This document shows, piece by piece, positions 20,088-39,610 of a stretch of DNA of 64,000 nucleotides (positions are counted from its first letter, which is position 1; each line of letters opens with the position of its first letter). Position numbers and translations under genes: made by a program. The notes under the pieces were generated by a model that saw nothing but the letters and a program-made list of their open reading frames with translations, was not told the origin of the DNA and ran no database searches. Source of the DNA: Cellulomonas sp. C5510 (GTDB lineage: Bacteria; Actinomycetota; Actinomycetes; Actinomycetales; Cellulomonadaceae); the NCBI RefSeq assembly GCF_019797765.1, contig NZ_CP081862.1, positions 62,001 to 126,000 on the forward strand, written 5' to 3'.

Positions 20088-20094
20088 TGCCGCC

Positions 20095-20323: not shown

Positions 20324-22593
20324 ATGCGCACCACCCCCGACGACACCGTCGCTCCCGACCCGTCCGCCACCGACCCGGGCGCTACCGACCCGGGCGCCGA
20401 CCCGGGCCCGGCGCCCGCGCCCGCCCGCGCGTCCCGCCGCGCGCTCCTGCGCACCGGAGGGGCCGGCCTCCTGGCGTCGGCCGTCGCGCTCGGCGCGGCC
20501 CGGACGGCGTCCGCCGCCTCCCCGGTCGCCGCGGGCCCGCGCCGGCCGGCGCGGGCGCCCGCACCACCGGCACCGTGGCCACGGTCGCCGACCTGAAGCG
20601 TCTCCAGCCCACCGCGGGCGCCGTCGTCCTCGTCGCGGGGTACGCCGCGCCGGGCGACGGCGGCGGGATGGTGACCCGGTGGGACGCCGCCGCCACCGCG
20701 GACGCGAACGGTGGCACGGTGATCGCCTCGGAGCGACGGTCGCGCGGCCGCTGGCTGCTCGTCCACGACGGCGTGCTCGACTTCCGGCAGCTCGGCGTCC
20801 TGGACGCGAGCACGCCGGCGGACGACGCGCTCGACGCGATGGTCGGCGACCCGGCGGTGCACCGCATCGAGGCGCACACGGACCTCACCTTCACCCGCCG
20901 GCACCGGTTCACCCGGTCCGACCTCGTGCTCGACTTCGGCGGGCACCTGGTGACGACCGAGGGAATCGAGCCCGCCGCGGCCAACGACCCGTTCGCGGCG
21001 GTGATGTTCTTCCGGGGGACCGTGACCGACCACGTCGTGACCTCGACGCTGCCGGATGCGCTGCCGGAGCTCGTCGACATCGTGCCGGTGCCCGACTCCG
21101 GGGCGTTCGCGGTGGGGGACTGGTACGCCGTGCAGACGGACACCCGGCCCGGGGGCGGCAGCGCCGAGCGCGAGCTGATGTACCTGGTGCAGGTGACGCA
21201 GGTGGTCGACGCCACGCACGTGCGGCTCGGCTACAAGACGGGCTGGCCGCTGGCGGCGGGCCGGGTGCTGACGTTCACGCGCGTCGAGCCGGTCCAGCGC
21301 GTGACGGTGCAGCGGATGCGGTTCCGCGGGACCGGGACGGACCAGGTGTCGGGCTCGCACCCGGTGGCCTTCGAGTACGCGACGCACTGCGACGTGCACC
21401 AGGTCGCCGCGGAGCGCACGTTCTGGCCCGTGGTGATGCGGCGGTGGAACACGTCGTACGTGACGTCGCAGTGCTCCCTGGCCAACCCGGTGAGCGTGAC
21501 GCTCGGCGGCGCGGGCTACCTCACCCAGCAGATCTCCTGCCTGTACGCGCACGTGGTGGACTGCCGGACCTCGAACGCCCGGCACCTCAACGACTTCACC
21601 TGCGCGGCGTACTCGACCGTGGAGAACTGCCACGGCGACGGCGACGTGCAGGGTCCCTTCGTCACGCACGGGCAGTACGAGCACGACCTGACCTACATCG
21701 GGAACTCCGGGCTGATGACCTTCGCCAACTCGGGCGCGACCTGGGGCGGGCGCGCCAAGCGGGTGACGGTGCGGCAGCAGGTGGCCGCGCTGTTCTTCGC
21801 CCGGGTCGGCGTCGTCGACCTGACGCTGGAGGACTGCCAGGTGGTGCGCGACCCGAGCATGCCGGACTACCCGTCGTGGATGTGGGTGAACGCGGACGGC
21901 CTCCAGATGCGCGGGTGCCGGGTCGACGGGCGGTTCCAGCTCTCGCAGGCCACGGACCTGTCCGCACGCCCCACGGTGATCGAGGACTGCGTGATCGGCC
22001 TGGCGGACCAGCTGGCGTCGATGCCGTTCGTGGCCGCGAACGTCTCCACGCCGGTGCACCTGGTGCGGACGACGATCACGGGCCTGGACGGCGGCACGAC
22101 CCTGTTCTCCGGGACCGGCCCGCTCATCCTGACGGGCTGCACGCTCCAGGGCTCCGAGGGTGGCGCGGCGCTCACCGTGGCGTCGTCCCGCCTGGTGCTG
22201 GACGGGACCGAGCTGGCCGGCACCGGGGTCCTGCTGGCCGGGACCGGGGATCAGGCGCTCGAGGTGACCGGCGGCACGCGGGCGACGGGGGCCCCGGCGT
22301 CGGGTGTGGTGTTCGGGCGGGCCGCGACCGGCGGGACCCTGTCGTGGTCGTTCGACGGGTACACCGGGGTCGCCGGCGGGGACGCGGTCGCGCACGTCGC
22401 GCTCACGGGCGGGAGCAACCACTACCGCGCGACCGGCTCGACGTTCGAGGGAGGTCGGCTGGAGCTCGCCGACGCGGCGTTCGGGCCCGGGTCGTCGCTG
22501 CTGCACACGGCCAACGTGGAGCGCGGCGTGACCCGGACGGCGCTCCCGGCGACGGGGGACCGCGTCCTGTCGGACGGCAACCTGGTGGCCTGA
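20324..22593 (+). CDS. Secreted right-handed beta-helix protein with Tat signal; reading frame broken near its N-terminus
   Basis: The N-terminal part (ATG 20324) encodes a Tat-type signal: SRRALLRTGGAGLLASAVAL, then a TASAA cleavage site. This frame stops at 20594-20596, while the mature domain (from TVATVADLKRL, about 20570 on) continues in the neighbouring frame to 22593. A one-base loss in the GC-rich stretch 20520-20590 would explain it, either as a sequencing error or a real mutation. The mature part of about 670 residues has serial beta-strand coils with short DCxV/ENC-type repeats, as in pectate-lyase-fold proteins and tailspikes (Pectate_lyase_3 type). A polysaccharide-cleaving role is inferred; no catalytic residues were assigned. 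It neighbours the IclR/sugar locus. Confidence 0.7.
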
Positions 22594-22601
22594 TGCTCTA
22601 C

Positions 22602-22618
22602 GTTCGGCAATGCCGAAC
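22602..22618. promoter_or_regulatory. IclR-type palindrome, copy 1
   Basis: GTTCGG-CAATG-CCGAAC, a perfect palindrome, followed by AGCGG. A TACGTT -10-like hexamer (22600-22605) overlaps the left arm. It starts 9 nt after the beta-helix stop, where no gene start is apparent. Confidence 0.7.
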
Positions 22619-22691
22619 AGCGGCAGGCTTTACAGAACCGTAACGCCCAGGCCTTGCCGCCGACCCGGTCGCGCGCTTCAATGAACTGTCC

Positions 22692-22708
22692 GTTCGGTTG
22701 TGCCGAAT
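22692..22708. promoter_or_regulatory. IclR-type palindrome, copy 2
   Basis: GTTCGG-TTGTG-CCGAAT. Its reverse complement agrees with copy 3 at 15 of 17 positions. Copies 1 and 2 are 90 bp apart centre to centre, nearly the same as copies 3 and 4. Confidence 0.65.
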
Positions 22709-22780
22709 GGCGTTTGGAAAGTGCTCGTGGCGGAGCGCAAGGCAGCACGTGGGGCCGCGGCCGGGCTGGACCGCACCCCT

Positions 22781-22813
22781 GGAGGGCAGCACCCCGACCG
22801 GGTGCTGCCCTCC
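22781..22813. terminator. Bidirectional hairpin terminator
   Basis: A perfect 14-bp stem, GGAGGGCAGCACCC (22781-22794) and its complement (22800-22813), with a 5-nt loop. It lies 20 bp after the stop of the minus-strand Gfo/Idh gene, and would also end any plus-strand transcript from the region with palindromes 1 and 2. Confidence 0.85.
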
Positions 22814-22833
22814 GCCGCGCCCGGGCCGGTCGG

Positions 22834-23706
22834 TCACGCGCACAGCGCGGCGAGGACGCGGACGGCGTCGACCAGTGCGGCACCCGACGGCGCCACGGTG
22901 CCGCTGCGCACGCCCGCGAGGAACCGGGACAGCACCGGCCGCAGGTAGTCGGCGCCCAGCTCGACCCGCACGTCCTCCCGCCCGTCGGCCCCGGTGACCG
23001 CCACCTGGTACGGCGTGCCGGCGCTATCGGCACCGCGACCGGGGGTCGCGACCGTCACCACCCCCACGTCCCGCCCGGCGGGGACCAGCGCCGTCCGGGT
23101 GCCGGCGCCGGCGACCACCGCGACCGGCCCGGACACCGGGTCGCGCAGCACCCCGAGGGCGGCCTCGACCACGTGCACGGCGGTGAACGCCAGGCCGCCG
23201 TGCGGGGACGCGGGGTCGGCCGGCCCGGAGGCCGTGACGGTCAGGCCGGACGGCGACGGGCGCCAGCGCGCGGCGAGGGCGCGCACGTCCGGGTGCAGGC
23301 GCAGGGCCGAGGCGCTGCTCAGCGGGAGCCCGTGCGCCGCGGCCAGCTCCACCAGCCGCGCCGCGTCCTCGGGGTCGGCGGTGAACGGCTTGTCGACGAG
23401 CAGCGGCAGGCCCGCCCGCAGCAGCGGCTCGGCCAGCGCGCGGTGCCCGCGGGCGTCCCGGGTGGCCAGCAGCACGGCCTGCACGCCGGAGCGCGCGAGC
23501 AGGGCCGCCGTGCGCTCCGGTGTGCCCGACCGCGTGGCCGCGGCGCCCGCGCGGCGGAGCGTGGCGAGACGGTCGTCCCCCGCCGGTTCGGCGTCCGGGA
23601 CGGCGACGACGGCGACGTCGACACCCGGGCCGAGTGCGCCCGCCCGGGCGAGCCGCAGCACCTGGTCGACGTGCGTCGACTCGGCCCCGACGATCCCCAG
23701 TCGCAT
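22834..23706 (-). CDS. Gfo/Idh/MocA family NAD(P)-dependent dehydrogenase
   Basis: A 290-residue oxidoreductase. The Rossmann motif is GIVGAESTHVDQ at residues 4-15, and the family hallmark EKP appears as VDKPFTADP near residue 106. It is shorter than the usual 330-380 residues. Such enzymes oxidise or epimerise sugars, inositols and their derivatives. AGGAGGACAGG before the ATG supports the start at 23706; palindrome copy 3 lies 16 nt upstream, so the IclR regulator likely controls it. It is divergent from iclR. Confidence 0.85.
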   Translation of the reverse strand: MRLGIVGAESTHVDQVLRLARAGALGPGVDVAVVAVPDAEPAGDDRLATLRRAGAAATRSGTPERTAALLARSGVQAVLLATRDARGHRALAEPLLRAGLPLLVDKPFTADPEDAARLVELAAAHGLPLSSASALRLHPDVRALAARWRPSPSGLTVTASGPADPASPHGGLAFTAVHVVEAALGVLRDPVSGPVAVVAGAGTRTALVPAGRDVGVVTVATPGRGADSAGTPYQVAVTGADGREDVRVELGADYLRPVLSRFLAGVRSGTVAPSGAALVDAVRVLAALCA

Positions 23707-23721
23707 CCTGTCCTCCTGTGC

Positions 23722-23738
23722 GTTCGGCACGACCGAAC
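23722..23738. promoter_or_regulatory. IclR-type palindrome, copy 3
   Basis: GTTCGG-CACGA-CCGAAC, followed by AGCGG as in copies 1 and 4. It sits 16 nt upstream of the minus-strand Gfo/Idh start codon, within the leader. Confidence 0.75.
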
Positions 23739-23810
23739 AGCGGCGGAGCGCGGCGCGGGCGGGACCGGCTCGGCCTCGACGGGCGCGATCGGCCGTCCGC
23801 CTCGGACACT

Positions 23811-23827
23811 AGTCGGCGGTACCGAAC
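23811..23827. promoter_or_regulatory. IclR-type palindrome, copy 4
   Basis: AGTCGG-CGGTA-CCGAAC, followed by AGCGG. It overlaps the spacer of a weak promoter with -10 TAGCCT (23834-23839) in front of the IclR gene, consistent with autoregulation. Confidence 0.65.
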
Positions 23828-23885
23828 AGCGGCTAGCCTGGCAGCACGGCGCCGGCGCGGCGCCCCGGCCTGCAGGGGAGACCAC

Positions 23886-24752
23886 ATGGAGCCGAGCCCG
23901 CCCGAGTCCGAGGACTCCCGGTACTGGGTGCGCTCGGTGGCCCGTGCCGTCGACGTGCTGGAGCTCCTGGCGGCTCGACCACCCGGTGACGGCATGTCCG
24001 TGACCGAGATCGGTCAGGCGCTCGGGCTGTCCAAGAGCGCGGCCTTCGCGACGCTGTACACGCTCACCCGTCGCGGGCTGGTGGCCGACGACGGCGCGGG
24101 CATGTCCCGGCGCTACCGGCTCGGCATGGCCCTCGCACGCCTGGGCTCGCAGGCGCTGGCGCAGACGTCGTTGCGCGACGTGGCGCGGCCGCACCTCGTC
24201 GCGCTGGCCCGCACCACCTCGGCGACGGCGCGGCTCGCGACGCTGGTCCAGGACCAGGCGGTCGTCATCGACCAGGTCGGCGGCAACGAGCGCATCCGGC
24301 TCGACCTGCGGATGGGCAGCCACGAGCTGCCGCACTCCACCGGCCTCGGCAAGGCGATCCTGTCGTGGCTGCCGCCCGACCAGGTGCGCGAGCTGGTGGG
24401 GCGCGTGGGGCTCATGCGCCGGACGTCGCGCACCATCACGGACGTCGACACGCTGGTCGCGCACCTGGCCGAGAGCCGCGCGCAGGGCTACGCCATCGAC
24501 GACGAGGAGGACGCCGAGGGGGTGTTCTGCATCGGCTCGCCGCTGCTCGGGCACGACGGCGCGTGCGTCGGCGCGATCTCCATCACGGGCCTCAAGCTCG
24601 ACCAGCCGGCGTGGCACTACCAGGAGCTCGGGCGCACCGTGCGCGACTCCGCCCGGCACATCTCCCGGGACCTCGGGTACGACCCGGACGCCCCCGCGGT
24701 GACGACGGTCGGCGGCCCCGAGGTGGTTGACGGGGCGGTCGCCCCGGACTAG
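23886..24752 (+). CDS. IclR-family transcriptional regulator of the sugar-acid locus
   Basis: A 288-residue regulator with the IclR layout: N-terminal winged HTH (SVTEIGQALGLSKSAAFATLYTL in outline, about 35-57) and the C-terminal GAF-like effector domain, recognisable by HSTGLGKAILSWLP, AIDDEEDAEGVFCIGSPL and VGAISITG. The effector is usually a pathway intermediate, here perhaps a sugar acid. AGGGGAG (23873-23879) precedes the ATG. Four copies of a GTTCGG-N5-CCGAAC palindrome lie within 1.3 kb, two of them in its own divergent promoter region, making it the likely binder. Confidence 0.9.
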   Translation: MEPSPPESEDSRYWVRSVARAVDVLELLAARPPGDGMSVTEIGQALGLSKSAAFATLYTLTRRGLVADDGAGMSRRYRLGMALARLGSQALAQTSLRDVARPHLVALARTTSATARLATLVQDQAVVIDQVGGNERIRLDLRMGSHELPHSTGLGKAILSWLPPDQVRELVGRVGLMRRTSRTITDVDTLVAHLAESRAQGYAIDDEEDAEGVFCIGSPLLGHDGACVGAISITGLKLDQPAWHYQELGRTVRDSARHISRDLGYDPDAPAVTTVGGPEVVDGAVAPD

Positions 24753-24755
24753 CGT
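24727..24755 (+). promoter_or_regulatory. Promoter at the end of the IclR gene
   Basis: TTGACG (24727-24732), 17 nt, TAGCGT (24750-24755). It would drive the second Gfo/Idh gene and possibly the transporter, with a leader of about 145 nt in which I see no recognisable element or IclR palindrome. Confidence 0.5.
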
Positions 24756-24908
24756 CCCGTCCCACTGCACGACCCGCCCCAGCCCGGGAGGGTCGTCGCG
24801 ACGCAGGCCAGCCCCCTGCGCTCCGCCAGACGGTCGCCCTCGACGGGGAGGACGACCGCCAGCACGGCCCCGACGCCACGACGCGCACCGCGCGGACGAG
24901 TCCACGAC

Positions 24909-26336
24909 GTGACGAGTCCCCAGGCGGTCGGCATGGCAACGAGCAGCGAGACGTCCCCGCGCACGACGGGCGCGCCCACCGGCGTCCCGGCGGCCGCGGC
25001 GACGCGGTCGCCGACGGCACCGGCCGCCCCCGCCCCGCGGTCGTGGGAGCACGCGCCGCGCCGCAGCACCGCCGACGCCGTCGCCGGACTGCCGCCGGTC
25101 ACCGTCGCCCTGGTCGGCGCCGGCAACCGCGGCCAGACCTACCTGGCGTGGGCGCGGGCGAACCCGGGACGCGCCCGGCTGGTCGCCGTCGCCGACCCGC
25201 AGCCGCACCGGCGCGAGCTCGTCGCCGCGGGCGACCCGGGCGTCACGCACTACGACGACTGGCGGGACCTCGCCGCGCAGGGCCGGGTCGCGGACATGGT
25301 CGTGATCTCCACCCAGGACCGCGACCACGCCGAGCCGGCGGAGGCGTTCGCGGCGCTCGGCTACGCGGTGCTCCTGGAGAAGCCGATCGCCCCGACCGAG
25401 GCGGAGTGCCGCCGGATCGTCGCGGCGGTCGAGCGGGCGGGCGTGCTGTTCGGCGTCTGCCACGTCCTGCGGTACACGCCGTACACCGACCTGGTGAAGG
25501 AGGTCGTCGACTCCGGGGTCCTCGGCCGGGTGGTCGACGTGCAGCACCTCGAGCCGGTCGGCTGGTGGCACATGGCGCACTCCTACGTGCGCGGCCCGTG
25601 GCGGCGCGAGGACGAGTCGGCGCCGATGCTGCTGGCCAAGTCCTGCCACGACGTCGACTGGATCCGGTACGTGACCGGCCTGCGGGTCGAGAGGGTGTCG
25701 TCCTTCGGGTCGCTCACCGAGTTCCGCCCCGAGCACCGGCCCGCCGGCGCCGCGGACCGGTGCCTCGACTGCGCGCTCGAGCCCGGGTGCCCGTACTCCG
25801 CCCCGCGCCTGTACCTCGGCACGCTGCGCGCGGACGGCCCGGTCTGGCCGGTCACGGTCATCACGTCGCGCACGGACGAGCAGGGGGTCGTCGACGCGCT
25901 CCGCACCGGCCCGTACGGCCGCTGCGTGTGGGACTGCGACAACGACGTGGTCGACCACCAGGTCGTCGCGATGCGGCTCGAGGGCGGTGCCGCGGCGACG
26001 TTCACCATGACGGCGTTCTCCGAGCAGACCCACCGGCAGACGCGGGTGTTCGGCACGCACGGGTCGCTCGAGGGCGACGGCGAGCGGGTCCGCGTCGTCG
26101 ACTTCCGGGACAACACCGTGCGCGTCCTCGACACCGGCGCGGCCGGCTCGAACGCCGCGGACGGCCACGGCGGCGGCGACGCCGGCCTCATGGACGCCTT
26201 CACCGCCGCGGTCGCCACCGGTGACCGCACCTGGGTCCGGTCCGGAGCGGCCGAGTCCCTCGACAGCCACCTCGTCGTGTTCGCCGCCGAGCAGGCGCGC
26301 CGGACCGGCGAGGTCCGGGAGGTGGGCGCCGCGTGA
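24909..26336 (+). CDS. Gfo/Idh/MocA family oxidoreductase
   Basis: A 475-residue dehydrogenase. After about 60 residues of Ala/Pro/Thr-rich leader comes the Rossmann motif VALVGAGNRGQTY (about 64-76), then LLEKPIAPTEAEC with the EKP lysine and CHVLRYTPYTDLVK in the substrate region. A C-terminal section holds CLDCALEPGCPYSAPRLYLG, a Cys-rich segment typical of one large subfamily. The domain pair binds NAD(P) and a sugar-like substrate. The GTG start at 24909 is uncertain; a later start (ATG 24933) would shorten the disordered leader. It is the first gene after the promoter at 24727 and precedes the ABC importer. Confidence 0.85.
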   Translation: MTSPQAVGMATSSETSPRTTGAPTGVPAAAATRSPTAPAAPAPRSWEHAPRRSTADAVAGLPPVTVALVGAGNRGQTYLAWARANPGRARLVAVADPQPHRRELVAAGDPGVTHYDDWRDLAAQGRVADMVVISTQDRDHAEPAEAFAALGYAVLLEKPIAPTEAECRRIVAAVERAGVLFGVCHVLRYTPYTDLVKEVVDSGVLGRVVDVQHLEPVGWWHMAHSYVRGPWRREDESAPMLLAKSCHDVDWIRYVTGLRVERVSSFGSLTEFRPEHRPAGAADRCLDCALEPGCPYSAPRLYLGTLRADGPVWPVTVITSRTDEQGVVDALRTGPYGRCVWDCDNDVVDHQVVAMRLEGGAAATFTMTAFSEQTHRQTRVFGTHGSLEGDGERVRVVDFRDNTVRVLDTGAAGSNAADGHGGGDAGLMDAFTAAVATGDRTWVRSGAAESLDSHLVVFAAEQARRTGEVREVGAA

Positions 26337-26427
26337 CGGCCGCCGCCCGGGGCACCACGCACCACCCGCACGTCCCCCAGCAGTCCCTGCCTTCCCCCGA
26401 CCCCAGGGTCCTGATCAAGGAGATGCG

Positions 26428-27690
26428 ATGAGACTCGCGACGAAGTCGCTGGTGGCGGCCGGAGCCGCCTGCACGGTCCTGCTCGCCGGCTGTTCCTCCT
26501 CGTCCGACGGCGACGCCGCCGGCAGCGGCGAGGACGGAGCCCTGTCCGGCGAGGTCACGATGTGGATCTACCCGATCATCGCGGACGAGACCGCGCACCA
26601 GGACTTCTGGGACGCGCAGGTCGAGGCGTTCACCGCGGAGAACCCCGACGTCGACGTCACCGTCCAGGTGTACCCGTGGGCGGGCCGCGACGAGTCGCTG
26701 ACCACCGCGATCGCGTCCGGCACCGGCCCGGACGTCGTGTACCTGATCCCCGACCAGCTCGCGACGTACCAGTCGTCGATCGAGCCGGTCGACGGCTACC
26801 TGTCCGAGGAGCACGTCGCCGACATCCTCCCGAACGTCGCCGAGTCGATCACCGTCGACGGCCAGATGCTCGGCGCGCCGCTGCTCACCAGCTCCAACCC
26901 GCTGGTGTGCGACAAGGCGGCGTTCGACGCGATCGGTGCCACCGAGTACCCGGAGACCTGGGACGACCTGCTGGACATCGCCCCGGACCTGGCCGAGCAG
27001 GGCATCTACGCCACGAACTACTGGGGCTCGCCCGAGGTCACGCTGAACATGACGTTCTACCCGCTGCTGTGGCAGGCGGGGGGCGACGTGTTCAGCGAGG
27101 ACGGCACGTCGGTGGCGTTCAACTCGGACGCGGGCGTCGAGGCGCTCGAGTTCCTCGTCGAGCTGAACGAGGGCGGCTACCTCGAGCCCGACCTCATCAC
27201 CACCACGCCGAGCATCGAGCAGACGGCGCTCGCGCAGAACAAGGTCGCCTGCACCTGGCAGTCCGGCCCGGCTGACGTCGAGGCGTACTGGGGCACCGAG
27301 AACATCGTCATCCAGCCGCCGCTGACCCACGAGGAGACGGTCGGCTACGGCACCGTCGGCTCGCTGTCGATGCTCAAGGGCTCGGAGAACAAGGACGCGG
27401 CCGGCGCGTGGATCGACTTCGTGACCTCGGCGGACCCGGTCACCGAGTTCGTCACCACCGCGAAGATGTTCTCCCCGCTGTCCTCGACCGGCGAGCTCTA
27501 CGCGGACGACCCGGTGTACGGCGCGATCGAGAAGACGATCCCCGACACCACGGTCGGCCCGGTCAACGAGCACGCCCGCGAGGTGATGGGCGTCCTCGCC
27601 CCGGAGATCCAGGCCGCGCTGCTCGGGCAGAAGTCCGCGCAGCAGGCCCTCGACGACGCCGCGGCCTCGGCCGACGCCATGCTGGGCTGA
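26428..27690 (+). CDS. ABC sugar transporter solute-binding lipoprotein (family 1)
   Basis: Extracellular receptor of 420 residues. The signal peptide ends with lipobox LLAGC (Cys22 is lipidated), then an Ala/Ser/Gly/Asp linker and the family 1 binding fold (VTMWIYP, ENPDVDVTVQVYPW, GTGPDVVYLIPDQ). AAGGAGA at 26417-26423 supports the ATG. It precedes two permease genes, completing the membrane part of a carbohydrate-uptake-1 importer. No ATPase gene is nearby; such importers usually share an MsiK-type ATPase encoded elsewhere. The ligand is probably a mono- or oligosaccharide related to the adjacent catabolic genes. Confidence 0.93.
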   Translation: MRLATKSLVAAGAACTVLLAGCSSSSDGDAAGSGEDGALSGEVTMWIYPIIADETAHQDFWDAQVEAFTAENPDVDVTVQVYPWAGRDESLTTAIASGTGPDVVYLIPDQLATYQSSIEPVDGYLSEEHVADILPNVAESITVDGQMLGAPLLTSSNPLVCDKAAFDAIGATEYPETWDDLLDIAPDLAEQGIYATNYWGSPEVTLNMTFYPLLWQAGGDVFSEDGTSVAFNSDAGVEALEFLVELNEGGYLEPDLITTTPSIEQTALAQNKVACTWQSGPADVEAYWGTENIVIQPPLTHEETVGYGTVGSLSMLKGSENKDAAGAWIDFVTSADPVTEFVTTAKMFSPLSSTGELYADDPVYGAIEKTIPDTTVGPVNEHAREVMGVLAPEIQAALLGQKSAQQALDDAAASADAMLG

Positions 27691-27697
27691 CCAGGCG

Positions 27698-29532: not shown

Positions 29533-29594
29533 GCCGCCGCGGCGACCGCCGCGCCCCCGGCCCCCCGTCCCGCAGACCCCACGGAAGGACCCGC

Positions 29595-31741: not shown

Positions 31742-32748
31742 CGGCCGTGCTGGTGGCGGTGCCCGCCGCGCTCCGGGCGGAGTTCTTCGACGTCGCGGCC
31801 GAGCGCGCCCTCGGCGAGGCCGCCGCGGCGCTCGGCGGCGGGGTGGCGTGGGTCGAGGGCGGGCCCGCGCTGCTCGCGCCGGGTGCCGCCTGGCCGCGGG
31901 CGCGCGTCCTGGTGACGACATGGGGTCAGCCGCTGCTCGACGCCGCGCTGCTCGACCGGCTGCCCGCGCTCGGGCTGGTCGCGCACACCGGCGCGACCGT
32001 GCGGCCGTTCCTGACCCCCGAGGTCGCGGCCCGCGGCGTCGCCGTCACCCAGGCCGGCCAGGGCATGGCCCGGTCGGTCGCCGAGGTGGCGCTCGCGTTC
32101 ACGCTGGCGCTGCTGCACCGGGTGCCGCGGTTCGACCACGCGCTGCACGCCGGCGCGCCCTGGGCCGAGGCGGAGGCGGCCCCCGCGCGGCACGAGGTGC
32201 TCGGCGCGACGATCGGCGTGGTCGGCGCCTCCCGGACCGGCCGGGCGAACATCGCGCTGCTCCGGGCGCTCGGCGCGCACGTGCTGGTCAGCGACCCGTA
32301 CCTCACCGTGGAGGACGCCGCGGCGCTCGGGGTGGAGCGGGCCGAGCTCGACGACCTGCTGCGGCGCTCCCGCGTCGTCGTGCTGCACGCGCCGTCGCTG
32401 CCGGAGACCCGGCACCTGATCGACGCGCGGCGGCTGGCGCTGCTGCCGGACGGCGCCGGGCTGGTGAACACCGCGCGGTCGTGGCTCGTCGACGAGGCGG
32501 CGCTGGTCGCCGAGCTCCGGACCGGGCGGATCGACGCGGCGCTGGACGTGTTCGACGAGGAGCCGCTGCCCGCCGGCCACCCGCTGCGGTCCCTGCCCAA
32601 CGTGCTGCTGACACCGCACCACGCGGCGGGCACGGTGGAGGGGCGGCTCCGGCAGGGCGGGATCGTGGTGGACGAGGTGGCGCGGTTCGCGCGCGGGGAC
32701 GCGCTGCGGCACGCGGTGACGGCGGAGGACCTGGAGCGGATGGCATGA
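31738..32748 (+). CDS. D-isomer-specific 2-hydroxyacid dehydrogenase family protein
   Basis: A 336-residue NAD-dependent dehydrogenase. The NAD motif is GVVGASRTGRANI (about 160-172), deviating from GxGxxG at the second and third glycines. The catalytic triad region is visible: Arg in NTARSWLVDE, Glu in VFDEEPLP, His in LTPHHAAGT. It could reduce a 2-keto-acid or oxidise a 2-hydroxy acid from the pathway. It overlaps neighbours on both sides by 4 nt. Confidence 0.88.
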   Translation: MTAVLVAVPAALRAEFFDVAAERALGEAAAALGGGVAWVEGGPALLAPGAAWPRARVLVTTWGQPLLDAALLDRLPALGLVAHTGATVRPFLTPEVAARGVAVTQAGQGMARSVAEVALAFTLALLHRVPRFDHALHAGAPWAEAEAAPARHEVLGATIGVVGASRTGRANIALLRALGAHVLVSDPYLTVEDAAALGVERAELDDLLRRSRVVVLHAPSLPETRHLIDARRLALLPDGAGLVNTARSWLVDEAALVAELRTGRIDAALDVFDEEPLPAGHPLRSLPNVLLTPHHAAGTVEGRLRQGGIVVDEVARFARGDALRHAVTAEDLERMA

Positions 32749-33617
32749 GCGGGGACGGCGACGTGGTGCGGGAGGCGCGGGGCGCGGCGCGGGTGCGCGG
32801 GCGGTGGGCCGCCGGGGAGCCGGCACGCGGGGTGTGGAGCACCCTGCCGGACCCGGTGGTGGCGGAGCTGCTCGGCCGCGCGGGCTACGACTACGTGTGC
32901 GTCGACCTCCAGCACGGGATGACGGGCCCCGGCACGGTGCTGCCCGTCCTGCAGGCGCTGCGGCACACCCCGGCGACGACGCTGGTCCGCGTGCCGGGAC
33001 CGGACCCCGAGCTGATGATGCGCGCGCTCGACCTCGGCGCCGACGGGGTCGTCGTCCCGATGGTCGACACCCCCGAGCAGGCGGCGGCCGCGGTGGCGGC
33101 GTGCACCTACCCGCCGGGCGGTGTGCGGTCCTGGGGGCCGATGTGGGGCGACGTGGACGGCGCGGCGCCCGCCCCCGCGGAGGCCGACGCCGCGCGGCTG
33201 GTCGTCGTCATGGTCGAGACCGCCGCCGGCCTGCGGAACGCCGCGGCGATCGCGGCGGTGCCGGGCGTCGACGCCGTCTACGTCGGCCCGAACGACCTCG
33301 CGCTCTCCCTCGGGCACGGGCGGGCCACGTACGCGACGTCCCCCGCGGTGCACGCCGCCCTGGACGGGCTGGTGGCGGCGGCGTCCGGCGCCGGCACCGC
33401 GGTGGGCCTGCACTGCGCGACGCCGGAGATGGCGGCGTACTGGCAGGCGCGCGGGGTGCGGATGCTGACGGTCGCCACCGACACGACGCTGCTGCGCGCC
33501 GGGTCGGCGGACGCGCTCGCCCGGGCGGGTGGCGACCCGGCGGCGGGCGCGCCGCCCGCCCGGCACCCCGGGGGCGGCCCGGGCGCCGTCGCGGCACCCG
33601 CGGAGATCGCATCGTGA
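32745..33617 (+). CDS. HpcH/HpaI family class II aldolase
   Basis: A 290-residue metal-dependent pyruvate-type aldolase. Landmarks: YVCVDLQHGM (catalytic His), VRVPGPDPELMMRALDLGADGVVVPMV in outline (Arg and barrel core), VVMVETAAGL (metal Glu) and VDAVYVGPNDLALSLG (metal Asp). Characterised relatives cleave 2-keto-3-deoxy-L-rhamnonate, 2-keto-3-deoxy-glucarate or related acids to pyruvate and an aldehyde, which fits the dehydratase downstream. A Pro/Gly/Ala-rich tail of about 25 residues ends the protein. ATGA/GTGA overlaps link it to both neighbours. Confidence 0.9.
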   Translation: MSGDGDVVREARGAARVRGRWAAGEPARGVWSTLPDPVVAELLGRAGYDYVCVDLQHGMTGPGTVLPVLQALRHTPATTLVRVPGPDPELMMRALDLGADGVVVPMVDTPEQAAAAVAACTYPPGGVRSWGPMWGDVDGAAPAPAEADAARLVVVMVETAAGLRNAAAIAAVPGVDAVYVGPNDLALSLGHGRATYATSPAVHAALDGLVAAASGAGTAVGLHCATPEMAAYWQARGVRMLTVATDTTLLRAGSADALARAGGDPAAGAPPARHPGGGPGAVAAPAEIAS

Positions 33618-35038
33618 GCGAGGCACCCGTGCTGCGGGACGCGACACCCGCGGTCACCACGTGGACCCCGCGGGAGTCCCGGCTGCACGCCGGCGTCGGA
33701 CGGGCGGACATCACGCCGCCCGTCGGCGTCCGCGCGCACAACTGGGGCGCGTCCCGCACCGAGGTCGCCACGGGCGTGCACCGGCCGCTCACGGCGACGG
33801 CGCTCGCGTTCCACGACCCCGGCGCGGGCCGGTGGCGGTACCTGCTGACGCTCGACCTCGGGTGGTGGCGGGACGCGGCGTCGTTCGAGCGGCTCCGGGA
33901 CCCGCTGCTGGGCGCCCTGGGTGCCGAGCCGGACGACCTGCTGCTGCACCTCGTGCACACCCATGCCGGCCCGTCGGTGTCGGACCGCGGCCTCGACCTG
34001 CCCGGGGCCGACCTGCTGGACGACTACCACCGCACGCTCGACGCGGGGGTGCTGGCGGCGTGCCGGCGGGCCCGCGACGCCGCGGTCGACGCCGTCGTCA
34101 CGTGGGGGACGGGCTGGTCCGACCTGGCCGTCACCCGCAACCTGCCGTGCGGGGACCGGGACGTCGTCGCGTTCGACCCCGGGACGCCCGCCGACGGCAC
34201 GCTCCTGGTCGGCCGGGTGTCGCCGGCGGGGGGAGGCGCGCCGCTGGGCGTGCTGCTCAACTACGCGTGCCACCCCACGACCCTCGCGCACCACAACAGC
34301 CTGCTGTCGCCCGACCTCGTCGGGGCCGCCCGCGAGGTGGTCGAGGCGGCTGCGGGAGCGCCGTGCCTGTTCCTGCAGGGCGCGTCCGGCGAGCTGTCGC
34401 CGCGCGAGCAGTACGGGCCCGGCACCGAGCAGGCCGACCGCAACGGCCGGGCCCTCGGGCACGCGGCGGTGGCCGTGCTGGAGCAGCTCGGGGAGCCGGG
34501 CACCCGCCTGCGGTTCGACGGGGTCGTCGAGTCCGGCGCACCGCTGGGGCTCTGGGTCCGGGAGCCCGCGCCCGCCCCCGCCGACGTGCGGTGCACGGCG
34601 CACACCGTCCCGCTTGCCGCGCGACCGGTGCCGACCGCCGAGCAGGTCGCGGAGCAGTGGGCCGGGATCGACCCCGTGGCCGCCGCCGAGCGGCTGCGCC
34701 GCGCCACCCGGCTCGCCGACGGCTACGTCTCCGGCGGGGTCGCCGGGCACCCGCTGTGGGTGTGGGGCCTCGGCGACGCCGTGCTCGTCGCGCACCCGGG
34801 CGAGGCGTTCTCGGCCCTGCAGACCGAGCTGCGCCGCCGGCACCCCGACCGCGCGGTGCTCGTGCTCAACCTCACCAACGGCCCGGGGTTCGTCTACCTG
34901 CCGGACCGCGCCTCCTACGACCGCGACCGGTACCAGGTGTGGCAGACGCTCCTGGCCCCGGGCGGCCTGGAGGACCTGACCGCCGCGGCGGACGCCGCGG
35001 TCGCCGCCCTGCCCCGACCCCGCGAGGTGACCGCATGA
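33614..35038 (+). CDS. Neutral/alkaline ceramidase-like metallohydrolase without signal peptide
   Basis: A 474-residue protein with the N-terminal-domain pattern of neutral ceramidases (PF04734): GVGRADITPPVG at the start, HTHAGP (zinc His) at about residue 116, and NYACHPTTLAHHNSLLSPDLVGAAREVVE in outline, the second zinc region and active-site Ser area. No signal peptide or hydrophobic N-terminus is present, so it should be cytosolic, unlike true ceramidases. In this operon a sphingolipid substrate is unlikely; an amide or ester hydrolase for a modified sugar is possible. Overlaps on both sides bind it to the operon. Confidence 0.8.
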   Translation: MSEAPVLRDATPAVTTWTPRESRLHAGVGRADITPPVGVRAHNWGASRTEVATGVHRPLTATALAFHDPGAGRWRYLLTLDLGWWRDAASFERLRDPLLGALGAEPDDLLLHLVHTHAGPSVSDRGLDLPGADLLDDYHRTLDAGVLAACRRARDAAVDAVVTWGTGWSDLAVTRNLPCGDRDVVAFDPGTPADGTLLVGRVSPAGGGAPLGVLLNYACHPTTLAHHNSLLSPDLVGAAREVVEAAAGAPCLFLQGASGELSPREQYGPGTEQADRNGRALGHAAVAVLEQLGEPGTRLRFDGVVESGAPLGLWVREPAPAPADVRCTAHTVPLAARPVPTAEQVAEQWAGIDPVAAAERLRRATRLADGYVSGGVAGHPLWVWGLGDAVLVAHPGEAFSALQTELRRRHPDRAVLVLNLTNGPGFVYLPDRASYDRDRYQVWQTLLAPGGLEDLTAAADAAVAALPRPREVTA

Positions 35039-35901
35039 CCGCCCCCGCCGCCCCGTCCGCCGTGCCCACGCCCTCCGTCCCGACCGCCCCGCCTCGCCCC
35101 GGGCGCTCGGTGGTCGTCACGGGCTCGTCCTCCGGCATCGGCCGGTCCATCGCGCTCCGGCTGGCCGCGGACGGCTGGGCCGTCGTGGTCGTCGGCCGGG
35201 ACGCGGGGCGGGTGGACGCGGTCGTGGCCGAGGTCCGCGCGGCCGGGGGGACCGCCGCCGGCTGCGTGGGCGACGTCGCCGACCGCGACCTGCACGCGCG
35301 GCTGCTCGCCGCGGCGCTCGACCTGGCGCCGCTCGGCGGCTGGGTCAACTGCGCCGGCACCACGGTCCGCAACGGCCTGACCGAGCTGTCCGAGCAGGTG
35401 ACGCTCGACATGGTCCGCGGGAACCAGCTCGGCTCGCTGTGGGGCTGCGAGACGGCCGTGGCGCACTGGGCCGGCGCCGGCGCCGGCGGCGCCGTGGTGA
35501 ACATGTCCTCCGTGCACGGCCGCGCGGCCTACCCGGAGCACACGGTCTACGAGATGACCAAGGCCGCGGTCGAGGCCCTGACCCGGTCGGTGGCCGTGAC
35601 GTACGCGGCGCACGGCATCCGGGCCAACGCCGTCGCGCCGGGCGCCGTGCGCTCGCCCGCCCTGGAGGCGTCGTTCGACAGCGCCCCCGACCCGGCCGCC
35701 GCGCGGGAGTTCCTCGCCCGGCGGTCCCCCGCGCTGCGCATCGCCGAGCCGGAGGAGGTCGCGGCGGTCGTCGCGTTCCTGCTCTCCGACGACGCGTCGT
35801 ACGTCTCGGGCCAGACGGTCGCGATCGACGGCGGCTGGACCGCGGCGCTGGGTGCCGACCCGGAGGAGCCGGGCGCGCGCCGGTCGGGGGTGGGCGCGTG
35901 A
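35035..35901 (+). CDS. Short-chain dehydrogenase/reductase
   Basis: A classical SDR of 288 residues. Cofactor motif TGSSSGIG at 29-36, NCAG at 105-108, catalytic Ser159, Tyr172 and Lys176 (YEMTK), and the C-terminal VSGQTVAIDGGW. Arg in GRDAGR after the second strand suggests NADP. In the operon it is a candidate for oxidising an aldose to its lactone or a 2-keto-3-deoxy acid. An extra 24-residue Pro/Ala-rich N-terminus precedes the fold. ATG overlaps the preceding stop (ATGA). Confidence 0.92.
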   Translation: MTAPAAPSAVPTPSVPTAPPRPGRSVVVTGSSSGIGRSIALRLAADGWAVVVVGRDAGRVDAVVAEVRAAGGTAAGCVGDVADRDLHARLLAAALDLAPLGGWVNCAGTTVRNGLTELSEQVTLDMVRGNQLGSLWGCETAVAHWAGAGAGGAVVNMSSVHGRAAYPEHTVYEMTKAAVEALTRSVAVTYAAHGIRANAVAPGAVRSPALEASFDSAPDPAAAREFLARRSPALRIAEPEEVAAVVAFLLSDDASYVSGQTVAIDGGWTAALGADPEEPGARRSGVGA

Positions 35902-37637
35902 CGCTGCGCAGCGCCGGCTGGTTCGCCGGGGACGACGAGGTGGCGGTGCTGCACCGCGTCGCCCTGCGGCTCGGGCCCGAGGACGCCGGACGTCCGGTCA
36001 TCGGCATCGCGGACACGGCGTCGGACCTCAACCCCTGCAACGCCGGGTTCACCGCGCTCGCCGAGCACGTGGCGGCCGGTGTCCGTGCCGCGGGCGGTGT
36101 GCCGGTGCGGTTCCCGGTGATGTCGCTGGGCGAGGACCTCATGAAGCCGTCCGCGATGCTCTACCGCAACCTCGTCGCGATGGAGCTCGAGGAGACCGTC
36201 CGGGCCTACCCGCTGGACGGCGTGGTGCACCTGGCGAACTGCGACAAGACCGTCCCCGCCGCCCTCATGGCCGCCGCCAGCGCCGACGTCCCGGCCCTGC
36301 TGCTGCTCGGCGGCGCCCGGTCGGCGCCCGAGTTCCGCGGCCGGCCGCTCGGCGCGGGCACCGACCTGTGGCGGGCGCTCGACGACCGGCGCGCGGGCGT
36401 GCTGGACGACGCCGGCTGGCGCGGGCTGGAGCAGTGCCTCGCGTGCGCCGGGCCGGGCGCGTGCAACGTCATGGGCACCGCGTCCACGCTCGCGATGCTG
36501 ACCGAGGCGATGGGCATGGCCCTGCCCGGCACCGCCCTGCTGGACGCCGTCGGTCCCGCCATCGAGGCCGCGGCGCGCGCCACCGGCGAGCGGGTGGTCG
36601 CGATGGTCCGCGCGCAGGAGCGCCCCTCCGCCCGCCTGACGCAGGCGGCGCTCGACACCGCCGCGCGCGTGCTCGCGGCGGTGGGCGGGTCGACGAACGC
36701 GGTGATCCACCTCGCGGCCGTGGCCGGGCGGCTCGGGCTCGACGCCTCGCTCGCCCGGTTCGACGCGCTGTGGCGGGACGTCCCGCTGCTCGCCGACGTC
36801 GAGCCCTGCGGGTCCGGCCTGGTGCACCGCCTGCGCGCGGACGGCGGGCTGCCGACGGTGCTGGCCGCGCTCGCGGCGGGCGGGCTCGTGGACCTCGACG
36901 CCGCGGCCGGCGACGGGCGGCCGTGGCGGGACGTGCTGCCGGCGTACCCGGAGCCGGGCGCCCCGGGCTCGCTGGTGCGCACGCCCGACGACCCCGTCCT
37001 GCCCGCGCCGACGCTCGCCGCCGTCTCCGGGTCCCTCGCGCCGTCCGGGGCCGTCATCAAGGTCGCCGCGGCGAGCCCGGAGCTGCTCGCCCACACGGGC
37101 CGCGCGGTCGTCTTCGACTCGTACGACGACATGCGCACGCGGCTGGACGACCCCGCGCTCGAGGTCGACCCCGGCGACGTCCTCGTCGTGCGCGGGTGCG
37201 GCCCCGTCGGCGTGCCCGGCATGCCGGAGTGGGGCATGGCGCCGATCCCGCAGCGGCTCGTCGAGCGGGGGGTGCGCGACATGGTCCGCGTCAGCGACGG
37301 GCGGATGAGCGGCACGTCGTTCGGCACCGTCGTGCTGCACGTCGCCCCCGAGGCCGCCGTGGGCGGTCCCCTCGGGCTGGTCGAGGACGGCGACCCCGTG
37401 CGGCTCGACGTCCCGGCGCGCCGGCTCGACCTGCTCGTCCCCGACGCCGAGCTGGACCGCCGCCGGGCCGCCCGCTCCGGTGCGACGCCGCGGGCCGGCG
37501 CGACGCACCTGCGCGGCTGGCCGCGGCTGTACGCCGACCACGTGCTCCAGGCCGACCGGGGCGCCGACCTCGACTTCCTGACCGCGCCGACCCCGGCGCA
37601 CCGCACCTTCGTCGAACCCGTCGTGGGCCGCTCGTGA
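35898..37637 (+). CDS. IlvD/Edd-family sugar-acid dehydratase
   Basis: A 579-residue Fe-S dehydratase, the length of L-arabinonate and D-xylonate dehydratases. Cluster cysteines: Cys47 (DLNPCNAG), Cys115 (HLANCDKTVP), Cys189 (GPGACNVMGTAST). DGRMSGTSFG near the C-terminus carries the catalytic serine region. The NPCN and CNxMGTAST forms are those of the sugar-acid dehydratase subgroup rather than 6-phosphogluconate dehydratase. It likely converts an aldonate to its 2-keto-3-deoxy derivative. The GTG start overlaps the SDR stop; the next gene starts 53 nt later with its own ribosome binding site. Confidence 0.92.
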   Translation: MTLRSAGWFAGDDEVAVLHRVALRLGPEDAGRPVIGIADTASDLNPCNAGFTALAEHVAAGVRAAGGVPVRFPVMSLGEDLMKPSAMLYRNLVAMELEETVRAYPLDGVVHLANCDKTVPAALMAAASADVPALLLLGGARSAPEFRGRPLGAGTDLWRALDDRRAGVLDDAGWRGLEQCLACAGPGACNVMGTASTLAMLTEAMGMALPGTALLDAVGPAIEAAARATGERVVAMVRAQERPSARLTQAALDTAARVLAAVGGSTNAVIHLAAVAGRLGLDASLARFDALWRDVPLLADVEPCGSGLVHRLRADGGLPTVLAALAAGGLVDLDAAAGDGRPWRDVLPAYPEPGAPGSLVRTPDDPVLPAPTLAAVSGSLAPSGAVIKVAAASPELLAHTGRAVVFDSYDDMRTRLDDPALEVDPGDVLVVRGCGPVGVPGMPEWGMAPIPQRLVERGVRDMVRVSDGRMSGTSFGTVVLHVAPEAAVGGPLGLVEDGDPVRLDVPARRLDLLVPDAELDRRRAARSGATPRAGATHLRGWPRLYADHVLQADRGADLDFLTAPTPAHRTFVEPVVGRS

Positions 37638-37690
37638 CCGCGCCCCGCGACCCCCACCCGACCGCACGACCCACTCACCGAGGAGACCCG

Positions 37691-38614
37691 ATGTCCGCAC
37701 CGCGGCCCCTGGCCGGCGTCCTGCCGGTCGTCCAGACACCGTTCGCCGCCGACGGGACCGTCGACGATGCCGCGCTGCGCCGCGAGGTCGACTGGGTGAT
37801 CGACCAGGGCGCCCACGGCGTCACCACCGGGATGGTCAGCGAGATCCTGCGCATGACGTCCACCGAGTGCGCGCGGCTCGCCGAGGTCGTGGCCGAGCAG
37901 GCGCGCGCCCGCGGGGCGCTCTCCGTGGTGAGCTGCGGCGCCGAGTCGACGTTCGGCGCGGTGGCCGCCGCGCGGCACGCCGAGTCGGTCGGCGCCGACG
38001 CCGTCATGGCCATCCCGCCGATCACCGTGCAGCTCGGCGACGACGCGCTGTTCGGCTACTACTCGGCGATCGTCGAGGCCACCGGGCTGGGCGTCGTGGT
38101 GCAGGACGCGTCCGGGTACGTGGGCCGGTCCCTGTCGATCGAGCTGCAGATGCGGCTGCTCGACCGGTACGGCGACCGCGTGTACTTCAAGCCCGAGGCG
38201 GCGCCGATCGGGCAGCGGCTGACCCTGCTGCGGGAGGCGACCGGCGGGCAGGCGCGGGTGTTCGAGGGCACCGGCGGCGCCGCCCTGGTCGACTCCTACC
38301 GCCGCGGGATCGTCGGCACCATGCCGGGGTCCGAGGTGACGTGGGCGATCGTCCGGCTCTGGGAGCTCGTCGAGGCGGGCCGCTGGGACGCCGCGTACGA
38401 GATCAGCGGGCCGCTGTCCGCCCTCGTCGCGCTGCAGACCTCCATCGACGTGTTCGTGGCGGTCGAGAAGCACCTCCTGGTGCGGCAGGGCGTGCTCGAG
38501 CGCACCGACGCGCGGGCGCCGCACGGGTTCGTGCTCGACCCCGAGACCCGCGACGAGGTGGACCGGCTGTTCGACCTGCTGCGCACCCGGACGCTGACGG
38601 ACCGGGTGGCGTGA
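37691..38614 (+). CDS. DHDPS-family aldolase/dehydratase (short type)
   Basis: A 307-residue TIM-barrel enzyme. Schiff-base Lys167 is in YFKPEA. The YNxP-type catalytic tyrosine motif is replaced by VVVQDASGYVG, so chemistry may differ from DapA; the size is like that of L-2-keto-3-deoxyarabonate dehydratase and 5-dehydro-4-deoxyglucarate dehydratase, which are in this family. It should act after the IlvD-type dehydratase. GAGGAGA precedes the ATG at 37691. Confidence 0.87.
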   Translation: MSAPRPLAGVLPVVQTPFAADGTVDDAALRREVDWVIDQGAHGVTTGMVSEILRMTSTECARLAEVVAEQARARGALSVVSCGAESTFGAVAAARHAESVGADAVMAIPPITVQLGDDALFGYYSAIVEATGLGVVVQDASGYVGRSLSIELQMRLLDRYGDRVYFKPEAAPIGQRLTLLREATGGQARVFEGTGGAALVDSYRRGIVGTMPGSEVTWAIVRLWELVEAGRWDAAYEISGPLSALVALQTSIDVFVAVEKHLLVRQGVLERTDARAPHGFVLDPETRDEVDRLFDLLRTRTLTDRVA

Positions 38615-38680
38615 GGCGCGCGGCGGCGGCAGGGTCCGCGGGACGCGCGGGGGCTCCCGCGTCGTGCGAGGCTGCGTGAG

Positions 38681-39610
38681 GTGACCGACCTGCGCACCGT
38701 GCCCCTGCCCGACCGCCGGATCGACGCCGCGGAGCTGGTCCCGCCGGACGCGCCGGAGGCGGTGGTGCTCGGCGAGGTCCGCGCCCGGCTCGGCGAGCGC
38801 CCCCTGCTGGACGCGCGTGACGGCTCCCTGGTCTGGGTCGACATCGACGCGCGCAGCGTGCACCGCTGGGCCGGCGGCGACCACGCGCGCGACGAGGTGG
38901 TCAGCGTGCCGTCGCAGGTCTCGCTCGCGTGGCCGACCGGGGGCGGGCTCCTGCTCGCGACGGCCGACGGGATCGGCGTGCACGACGGGACGACGCTCGG
39001 CCCGCTCACCCGGCCGGGGACCATGCCGGGGGACTACCGGTTCAACGACGGTGCCTGCGACGGCGCGGGGCGGCTGTGGGTCGCCACGATGCCGCGCGAC
39101 GGCTCCACGGGCGAGGGGACGGTCTACCGCGTCGCGGCGGTCGCCGACGGGGCGCTCGACGTCACCGCGGTCGTCACCGGCGTCGGGTGCGGCAACGGCG
39201 TCGCGTGGAGCCCCGACGGCTCGACGCTGTACCTCACGGACTCGGCGACCCGGACGGTCTACCGGGCCCCGTTCGACGTGGCGGCGGGCACGGTCGGCGC
39301 GTGGGAGCCGTTCCTGGCGTTCGCGTCGGACGGCCCGATGCCGGACGGCACCACCGTCGACGCGGACGGGTGCCTGTGGGTGGCGCTGTACGGCGGGGGC
39401 GCGGTGCTGCGGTTCGGGCCGGACGGCACGCCCCGCGGGGCGGTGCGGGTGCCGACGGCGCGGGTGACGTGCCTCGGCTTCGGGGCGCCGGGCACGGGGC
39501 GGGCGTACGTGACGACCGCTCACGCGGACGGCGACCCGCTCGCGGGGGCGGTGTTCGGCGTCGACGTGGCGGTGGACGGGCTCCCGGTGCGGGAGTTCGG
39601 GGAGGGCTGA
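38681..39610 (+). CDS. SMP-30/gluconolactonase family lactonase
   Basis: A 309-residue six-bladed beta-propeller lactonase. Family landmarks: LGERPLLDARDGSLVWVDI in outline (metal Glu in the first strand), FNDGACDGAGRLWVATM (Asn metal ligand), GNGVAWSPDGSTLYLTDS (Asn and Asp ligands). It would hydrolyse the sugar lactone from the dehydrogenase step to the aldonate. GTG start 38681 gives a family-sized N-terminus. It closes the locus, 66 bp after the DHDPS-family gene. Confidence 0.92.
   Translation: MTDLRTVPLPDRRIDAAELVPPDAPEAVVLGEVRARLGERPLLDARDGSLVWVDIDARSVHRWAGGDHARDEVVSVPSQVSLAWPTGGGLLLATADGIGVHDGTTLGPLTRPGTMPGDYRFNDGACDGAGRLWVATMPRDGSTGEGTVYRVAAVADGALDVTAVVTGVGCGNGVAWSPDGSTLYLTDSATRTVYRAPFDVAAGTVGAWEPFLAFASDGPMPDGTTVDADGCLWVALYGGGAVLRFGPDGTPRGAVRVPTARVTCLGFGAPGTGRAYVTTAHADGDPLAGAVFGVDVAVDGLPVREFGEG

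Follow-up and report, generated by a model that had tools for sequence, protein, structure and literature searches.

A conserved composite sugar-acid catabolic locus in Cellulomonas sp. C5510, with two separable modules and a probable common IclR regulator

Gene content and organization of the locus

The window analysed here is a stretch of 64,000 nucleotides (nt) from the 4.15-Mb genome of Cellulomonas sp. C5510 (contig NZ_CP081862.1, positions 62,001 to 126,000). Codon-usage gene calling together with Pfam and NCBIfam scans places 16 genes at 20324-39610 (19 kb) of the window, and together they form a genuine locus for sugar-acid catabolism, composite in build and conserved. Judged by comparison with related genomes, the locus is a pair of separable modules and not one linear pathway. 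Module A comprises the beta-helix gene bhelix, the Gfo/Idh oxidoreductases, an ABC importer, epim, dhdpsO and hadh; module B comprises hpaI, ceram, sdr, ilvD, dhdps2 and sgl.

All genes lie on the plus strand except gfoA, and assignments are from Pfam and NCBIfam unless another source is given. The locus opens with bhelix (20324..22593; gene calling and AlphaFold/PDB comparison), which encodes a signal peptide and a pectin-lyase-like beta-helix body. Behind it lie a predicted IclR operator, GTTCGG-N5-CCGAAC (site 1, 22602..22618; pattern search), and a plus-strand promoter-like element with operator site 2 (22692-22707) and a strong hairpin (22640..22820; comparison by eye and folding). The minus-strand gfoA (22834..23706; gene calling and Pfam) encodes a short Gfo/Idh oxidoreductase of 290 residues, and the divergent region between it and the regulator gene iclR (23886..24752) holds predicted operator site 3 (23722..23738; pattern search). 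A second Gfo/Idh oxidoreductase of 467 residues, gfoB (24933..26336), is followed by a sugar-type ABC importer consisting of an extracellular solute-binding protein, sbp (26428..27690), and two permeases, perm1 (27773..28633) and perm2 (28630..29532). Module A closes with epim (29595..30617), which is SDR/NAD-epimerase-like (PF13460, 23.4 bits, under the 27.2 cut-off), dhdpsO (30617..31741), a divergent class I DHDPS/NAL-fold enzyme (PF00701, 17.7 bits, under the 22.1 cut-off), and hadh (31729..32748), a D-2-hydroxyacid dehydrogenase.

Module B begins with hpaI (32745..33617), an HpcH/HpaI class II aldolase, and ceram (33629..35038), a neutral-ceramidase-like hydrolase of 469 residues (31.1 bits versus a cut-off of 32.1). 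Next come sdr (35035..35901), a classical SDR resembling glucose 1-dehydrogenase, and ilvD (35898..37637), an IlvD/EDD sugar-acid dehydratase. The last two genes are dhdps2 (37691..38614), a DHDPS/NAL enzyme placed by alignment to L-2-keto-3-deoxyarabonate dehydratase, and sgl (38681..39610), an SMP-30/gluconolactonase-like lactonase.

An earlier note on this DNA had named the same families, and all of them were recovered, bhelix by its predicted fold. It had also described the genes from 28630 to 37637 as mostly overlapping, which is correct: five of the seven junctions overlap, by 1, 4, 4, 4 and 13 nt, and gaps of 62 and 11 nt separate the other two. The 13-nt overlap shrinks to 4 nt if a later start codon is taken, and the hadh-hpaI overlap at the boundary between the modules is one of 4 nt. 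No ABC ATPase family was matched among the 16 proteins, and no ATPase search was made beyond the locus; the same scans, which for sdr covered the best 25 of its 227 NCBIfam matches, found no sugar-kinase family, as that note had stated, and no aldehyde-dehydrogenase family.

Conservation of the locus and separation of its modules

All 16 genes recur in identical arrangement in two more genomes of the genus (G009, on L096/L097, and L177), so the grouping is not due to chance. In L177, identity to the window falls to 41% for gfoA and 46% for sgl. Shorter pieces extend this picture: a 7.8-kb contig of Cellulomonas sp. RIT-PI-Y (L016) carries perm2 through ilvD, and genome G001 has a fragment spanning dhdpsO to ceram. 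The locus is accessory within the genus, with dhdpsO in 3/36 same-genus genomes, the source genome counted, and in one of three further ones (G612). The named best dhdpsO relatives at 83-99% identity (P0001, P0007, P0013) are Cellulomonas proteins.

More widely, dhdpsO relatives were confirmed in at least 591 stretches of a species-level genome collection, spread over many phyla. Our sample of 87 dhdpsO loci consists of the window, the best 80 of these stretches and six plasmid loci. The series SBP-permease-permease-epim-dhdpsO-hadh is uninterrupted in 12 of the 87 (window counted), from several actinobacterial genera; bhelix occurs in 8 and the gfoA cluster in 16. Matches to hpaI and ceram were found in just 1/86 fetched dhdpsO loci, the RIT-PI-Y contig. 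Lone matches to module B families near dhdpsO (ilvD in L006, L045 and L048; sgl in L032 and L083; sdr in several) were too weak or isolated to be taken for module B. Of five fetched relatives from the same family, L177 carries both modules; the remaining four (L178-L181) have module A with no module B match in the stretch. Six more stretches fetched alongside (L182-L187) hold the epim-dhdpsO pair without other module A genes, save gfoB in L182 and solute-binding protein and permeases in L186. Module B directly behind module A was seen in Cellulomonas only.

Module B has a distribution of its own. Counting the source genome and weak matches, ceram is matched in 40/394 class-level genomes; it has no match in the plasmid collection. 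An sdr adjoins ceram in 9 of the 13 genomes whose ceram surroundings were fetched (L130, L132, L134-L140). In genome G306 (L132), ceram-sdr-ilvD-dhdps2 with sgl further along makes up a B-like operon, and dhdpsO has no match in this genome or in any of six genomes of family f44; it was matched in all six genomes of family f38. Two loci of family f19 bring the parts together in another way. One (L135) reads epim-dhdpsO-hadh, then bhelix, then ceram-sdr, with other genes between, and also encodes a member of the enolase family plus an FAH-family relative of 2,4-didehydro-3-deoxy-L-rhamnonate hydrolase (258 bits, under the cut-off of 500). The other (L134), with dhdpsO, hadh, two bhelix genes, ceram and sdr, resembles it by eye. 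A ceram-SDR pair with exchangeable partner enzymes therefore recurs beside module A.

These distributions bear on the proposal, made in the earlier note, of one coordinated pathway. Its strictest form is a linear pathway for one modified sugar, with all enzymes acting in sequence. Such a pathway would suit the gene overlaps, that at the module boundary included, the joint retention of all 16 genes by three Cellulomonas genomes, and the two f19 loci where ceram and sdr lie close to module A. However, each module is found without the other (A without B in L178-L181; a B-like operon with no dhdpsO match in G306), and therefore each seems able to do without the enzymes of its counterpart. We consider a single enzyme chain improbable; what endures of the proposal is probable co-regulation.

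The opposite extreme is that two unrelated operons were joined by chance or lateral transfer in Cellulomonas, module B being merely expressed from the promoter of module A. The hadh-hpaI overlap would allow such read-through, and among the five same-family relatives module B is present in the Cellulomonas one only. Against this stand the f19 loci, in which bhelix, dhdpsO and ceram-sdr meet, otherwise arranged, in another family, and the regulator described below, whose orthologue and operator class accompany module B alone in G306. We regard chance joining as unlikely.

A probable common IclR regulator and operator class

The motif GTTCGG-N5-CCGAA occurs at 22602, 22692 and 23722, and in seven places genome-wide. 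Oriented operator matches in the window number five, a count reached by none of 100 shuffles, and half-sites spaced N6 rather than N5 gave no matches. The sites were called by exact pattern and fit the published GTT-11 bases-AAC class of IclR motifs, whose regulons often contain sugar and sugar-acid genes according to PMC8222616; this form is present at 22602 and 23722, and its final base deviates at 22692.

We then counted sites across 120 stretches, leaving out those that were short or duplicate (L001-L004, L011-L015, L099-L129, L149-L176 and L188-L195). At least two TTCGG-N5-CCGAA sites are present in seven, all seven of which have an IclR match of at least 60 bits; the window, L096 and L177 among them represent one genus and are not independent. 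None of the 110 stretches lacking such an IclR match has two sites. The sites lie upstream of iclR in the A-only loci L017 and L178. In the B-only locus L132 they lie upstream of iclR and of an ABC-epimerase-ceram operon, and in L131 between dhdps2 and iclR and also upstream of an MFS gene and an array of ceram genes. The window's iclR product scores 186 bits with the BhcR model, below the cut-off of 350. By their scores, the IclR proteins of G306 (264 bits, runner-up 84) and G568 (313 bits, runner-up 44) are clear orthologues. An orthologous IclR with predicted GTTCGG-N5-CCGAAC sites thus appears to accompany module A alone, module B alone and both together, which likely reflects one inducer. 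The modules would then be joined by this regulator and its operators and by their recurrent proximity, and not by a demonstrated common chemistry.

The segment at 22640-22820 sits between two convergent genes. A promoter-like element, TTGCC[G/C]-N17-TT[C/G]AAT, the operator and the hairpin are kept, by eye, in the window, L096 and L177. The hairpin has a folding z of -3.10 in the window and -2.75 in L177; the stem sequence differs and both fold. Rfam gave no match inside the segment and two sub-threshold matches, both outside it. This segment is a candidate for a small RNA, or for a short terminated transcript, under IclR control. A small open reading frame (ORF) seen by eye behind operator 2 in the window and L096 was dropped, its frame being broken in the matching stretch of L177.

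Module B as a probable non-phosphorylative aldonate route with an added putative hydrolase

The dehydratase ilvD passes the NF004784/PRK06131 model (661 bits, cut-off 539) and reaches 593 bits with the L-arabinonate dehydratase model, under that model's cut-off of 882. In the PDB it is matched best by 8EJ0, a protein named dihydroxyacid dehydratase, and by an L-arabinonate dehydratase (477 bits). The top NCBIfam match of sdr is NF005559, 'glucose 1-dehydrogenase' (181 bits versus a cut-off of 215). sgl matches the SMP-30 family (PF08450, 207 bits, cut-off 26), from which lactonase activity is predicted. hpaI falls far below the cut-offs of all four NCBIfam aldolases that it matched, and on these scores it fits no curated specificity.

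The second DHDPS-family enzyme, dhdps2, aligns over residues 3-290 (70.7 bits only) to the Azospirillum brasilense L-2-keto-3-deoxyarabonate dehydratase (PDB 3FKK, 7C0C). According to PMC9795676, Gln143 of that enzyme takes the place of the aldolase tyrosine, conservation of Glu173 does not extend to other DHDPS/NAL members, and Glu200 is a third reported residue. By hand-counted positions, dhdps2 has equivalents of Gln143, Lys171 and Glu173, and its Gln and Lys-x-Glu are kept in all five sequences compared, the window counted; unlike the Azospirillum enzyme, it has Gly at the Glu200 position. The earlier note had seen no place in known routes for the extra enzymes here; with these residues at least one of them, dhdps2, probably does fit such a route.

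ceram is similar in sequence to the neutral ceramidase of PDB 2zws over residues 21-271 (E 1.6e-7). His112, His215, Glu392, Tyr423 and Tyr435 are invariant in 16/16 ceram sequences and may correspond to the ceramidase zinc site. Unlike that ceramidase, ceram sits in a sugar-acid operon, and the motif GDVSPN is present in none of the 16 sequences. PMC5874051 calls this motif crucial for ceramidase activity; with it missing, we set ceramide hydrolysis aside. No obvious signal peptide was seen by eye. A role as a metal-dependent hydrolase is plausible. Separately, small genomes of family f44 carry three to five ceramidase-like matches per stretch (L131, L133, L141, L142), and in L131 two similar genes stand beside them, one of which, when scanned, proved to be an AstE/AspA-type deacylase.

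By family and residue patterns, module B reads like a non-phosphorylative route for aldonates to which a putative hydrolase lacking the ceramidase motif is added, in keeping with the earlier idea of sugar-acid catabolism by an SDR-lactonase-dehydratase set in unusual company. In common with Weimberg/Dahms-type routes, its operon combines an SDR, an SMP-30 lactonase, an IlvD/EDD dehydratase and a DHDPS-family protein resembling 2-keto-3-deoxy dehydratases with a member of a keto-acid aldolase family. HpaI-type aldolases occur in rhamnose routes. An ordinary aldose route of Weimberg/Dahms or rhamnose/fucose type, with module A as hitchhikers, is a rival reading, and SDR, SMP-30, IlvD and DHDPS are its families in PMC9795676. 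In contrast to such routes, however, the locus adds ceram, which recurs with an adjoining SDR (9/13 fetched ceram loci); has both HpaI and DHDPS enzymes, the former far under the curated aldolase cut-offs; and is joined to module A, a conserved unit by itself. Also, no aldehyde-dehydrogenase family, and so no 2-ketoglutarate-semialdehyde (KGSA) dehydrogenase, was matched among the 16 locus proteins, as the earlier note had it, the remainder of the genome not having been searched. We give little credence to an ordinary route.

Module A and the widespread epim-dhdpsO pair

All 8000 protein candidates scored for dhdpsO match at 1e-10 or better. In 74 of the 87 loci epim adjoins dhdpsO on the same strand, the two genes lying a median of 6 nt apart. 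As in the DHDPS/N-acetylneuraminate lyase superfamily, the predicted structure of dhdpsO is an (alpha/beta)8 DHDPS fold with a Schiff-base lysine and a catalytic tyrosine: Lys198 and Tyr170 are present in 52/52 sequences, and in hhalign they fall opposite the Lys and Tyr of a DapA-like protein that this genome encodes (probability 84.5, E 7e-06). Unlike other members, dhdpsO is about 75 residues longer than 3pb2_A and lacks the GXXG motif. Its loop in the window is GVHTTQ, in which V66, H67, T69 and Q70 are invariant across 52/52 sequences and position 68 is T or S; the loop aligns, with a gap, to GTTG of the DapA-like protein in hhalign. GXXG is named as the substrate-recognition motif of DHDPS/NAL aldolases in PMC9795676.

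SDR proteins have a glycine-rich nucleotide-binding pattern and the catalytic residues Ser-Tyr-Lys (YxxxK). In epim the glycine-rich motif is GxGGKxG, with G34, G37, K38 and G40 in 81/81 sequences and G36 in 74/81. Ser144 is kept in 80/81 (one gap) and Tyr171 in 81/81, and all 81 have C, T, V or S in place of the YxxxK lysine. PDB sequence searches with dhdpsO and with epim gave no match, epim has no NCBIfam match, and the Pfam and NCBIfam scans showed no curated family dedicated to either protein. By annotation of neighbours, the importers beside the pair vary by lineage (sugar ABC, MFS, tripartite, other ABC). A putative regulator family, mostly of 390-470 residues, with a weak GGDEF-like match and, by eye, a probable C-terminal helix-turn-helix, lies near epim-dhdpsO in 34/87 loci (for example L061:7503-8816).

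The exported protein bhelix begins at ATG 20324 with an RR-type signal peptide (Tat-like, by eye). Signal peptide and body (20575-22593) do not share a reading frame here, and in G009 they do; the split may be an assembly error or a real change. It has no Pfam or NCBIfam match. AlphaFold predicts a right-handed beta-helix, which in PDB comparison shares its fold with alginate epimerases such as AlgE4, capsule lyases such as the K1 lyase, and tailspikes. We make no substrate call, because identities are low (8-13% only). An invariant His/Asp/Glu/Arg patch near residues 336-371 is only suggestive of polysaccharide catalysis. Many public records name bhelix homologues 'peptidase C14', probably a propagated misannotation.

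Partner genes in the 87 dhdpsO loci, with clusters annotated from one scanned representative each, hint at the product. L-serine ammonia-lyase (Sda) alpha and beta subunit clusters occur in 13 and 14 loci, with representatives above NCBIfam cut-offs, and L147 has an annotated L-serine ammonia-lyase too. DegT aminotransferases are found in 12 loci, class III aminotransferases in 6, M20 hydrolases in 13 and hadh in 15. Sda, an aminotransferase or hadh is present in 40 of the 87, which suggests a module A product at the level of hydroxypyruvate or serine.

A different reading is that module A is an unrecognised oxidative uronate route, epim being an SDR-type dehydrogenase and dhdpsO a DHDPS-type dehydratase. 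Oxidative uronate routes employ a uronate dehydrogenase, a lactone-handling enzyme and a keto-deoxy-glucarate dehydratase. The family types agree, the fold of bhelix is close to those of alginate epimerases and polysaccharide lyases, and two neighbour clusters (10/87 and 6/87 loci) have Amidohydro_2 proteins as representatives. But epim has neither an NCBIfam match nor the SDR lysine, dhdpsO retains the aldolase tyrosine, and the locus again has no matched KGSA dehydrogenase. This, too, we think quite unlikely.

A model of the locus

Our preferred reading, held at a probability of roughly 0.5, is that the locus serves the breakdown of a sugar or sugar acid from plants or polymers, that a single IclR repressor probably controls it, and that the two modules are branches. 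Families, gene order, module limits, IclR orthology, the site pattern, active-site residues and the predicted folds of dhdpsO and bhelix are observed here, and each reaction, the substrate, operator binding and the flow described next are inferred. The exported bhelix would act on a polysaccharide, and the importer, with an ATPase assumed to be encoded elsewhere, would take up the product; the IclR repressor would bind GTTCGG-N5-CCGAAC. In module B, sdr would oxidise C1, the SMP-30 protein open the lactone and ilvD dehydrate the acid to a 2-keto-3-deoxy acid, which could undergo a second dehydration by dhdps2 or cleavage by hpaI. ceram may remove an amide or ester substituent or open a lactone. 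Module A would form another branch, acting on this substrate or a related one, in which the Gfo/Idh proteins and epim generate a carbonyl. dhdpsO would form a Schiff base and cleave the chain in a retro-aldol reaction yielding a C3 product, and hadh would reduce a 2-keto product such as hydroxypyruvate.

Several observations weigh against this reading. On the regulatory side, L035, L091 and L130 have an IclR match yet fewer than two sites; the start of iclR in L035 is overlapped by a site that has a mismatch in one of its half-sites. In four f44 genomes with matches, G262, G167 and G253 included, IclR is just 33-41% identical; the exact full-palindrome site is absent in four of six f44 genomes, and in G167 sites lie beside IclR paralogues, distant from the ceram array. 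The shared motif is also weak evidence for a shared inducer, because the GTT-11-AAC class is common to 54 orthologous groups of IclR regulators in PMC8222616. On the enzyme side stand the lack of a matched KGSA dehydrogenase, the Gly at the Glu200 position of dhdps2, and the replacement of the GDVSPN Ser by Ala in 10/16 ceram sequences, because of which the hydrolase assignment is loose. Neighbour counts are biased, because the 80 genome loci are the best of at least 591 and are rich in Paenibacillus and actinobacteria; and in 47/87 loci none of Sda, the aminotransferases or hadh was found, the evidence for a C3 product being one of association.

A more specific and tentative idea, which we hold to be possible though doubtful, is that epim and dhdpsO form a widespread, unrecognised two-step. 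The lysine-less SDR-fold protein would introduce a ketone into a sugar or sugar acid that carries no phosphate, and the DHDPS-fold aldolase with its remodelled carboxylate loop would release a C3 unit at the hydroxypyruvate or serine level for local partners (2-hydroxyacid dehydrogenase, aminotransferase, L-serine ammonia-lyase). The pair is so frequent that it probably handles a common compound; if the idea is true, epim-dhdpsO serves a common environmental compound without a described catabolic route. By linking the pair with a regulator and an operator, with an importer and with a better-known aldonate route, the Cellulomonas locus makes the substrate directly testable. The ceramidase-like family likewise gains a likely metabolic setting outside sphingolipids.

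A search of openly licensed PMC papers found none on the epim-dhdpsO pair or this gene combination, which is weak evidence of absence, and no characterised match for the whole gene order appeared in the searchable literature. What is striking is not the combination itself; it is that a near-classical aldonate route is joined to a widespread uncharacterised enzyme pair, apparently under one regulator.

Other observations in the window and genome

Elsewhere in the same genome, outside the window, adjoining matches to a second IlvD-family and DHDPS-family pair lie on the minus strand at G000:C1:717380-719451, perhaps another aldonate route. Within the window, a SAM riboswitch (19996-20090, minus strand) lies upstream of genes for MTHFR and cobalamin-independent methionine synthase, and a glycine riboswitch (7790-7904, plus strand) lies upstream of the ORF at 8117-11119.

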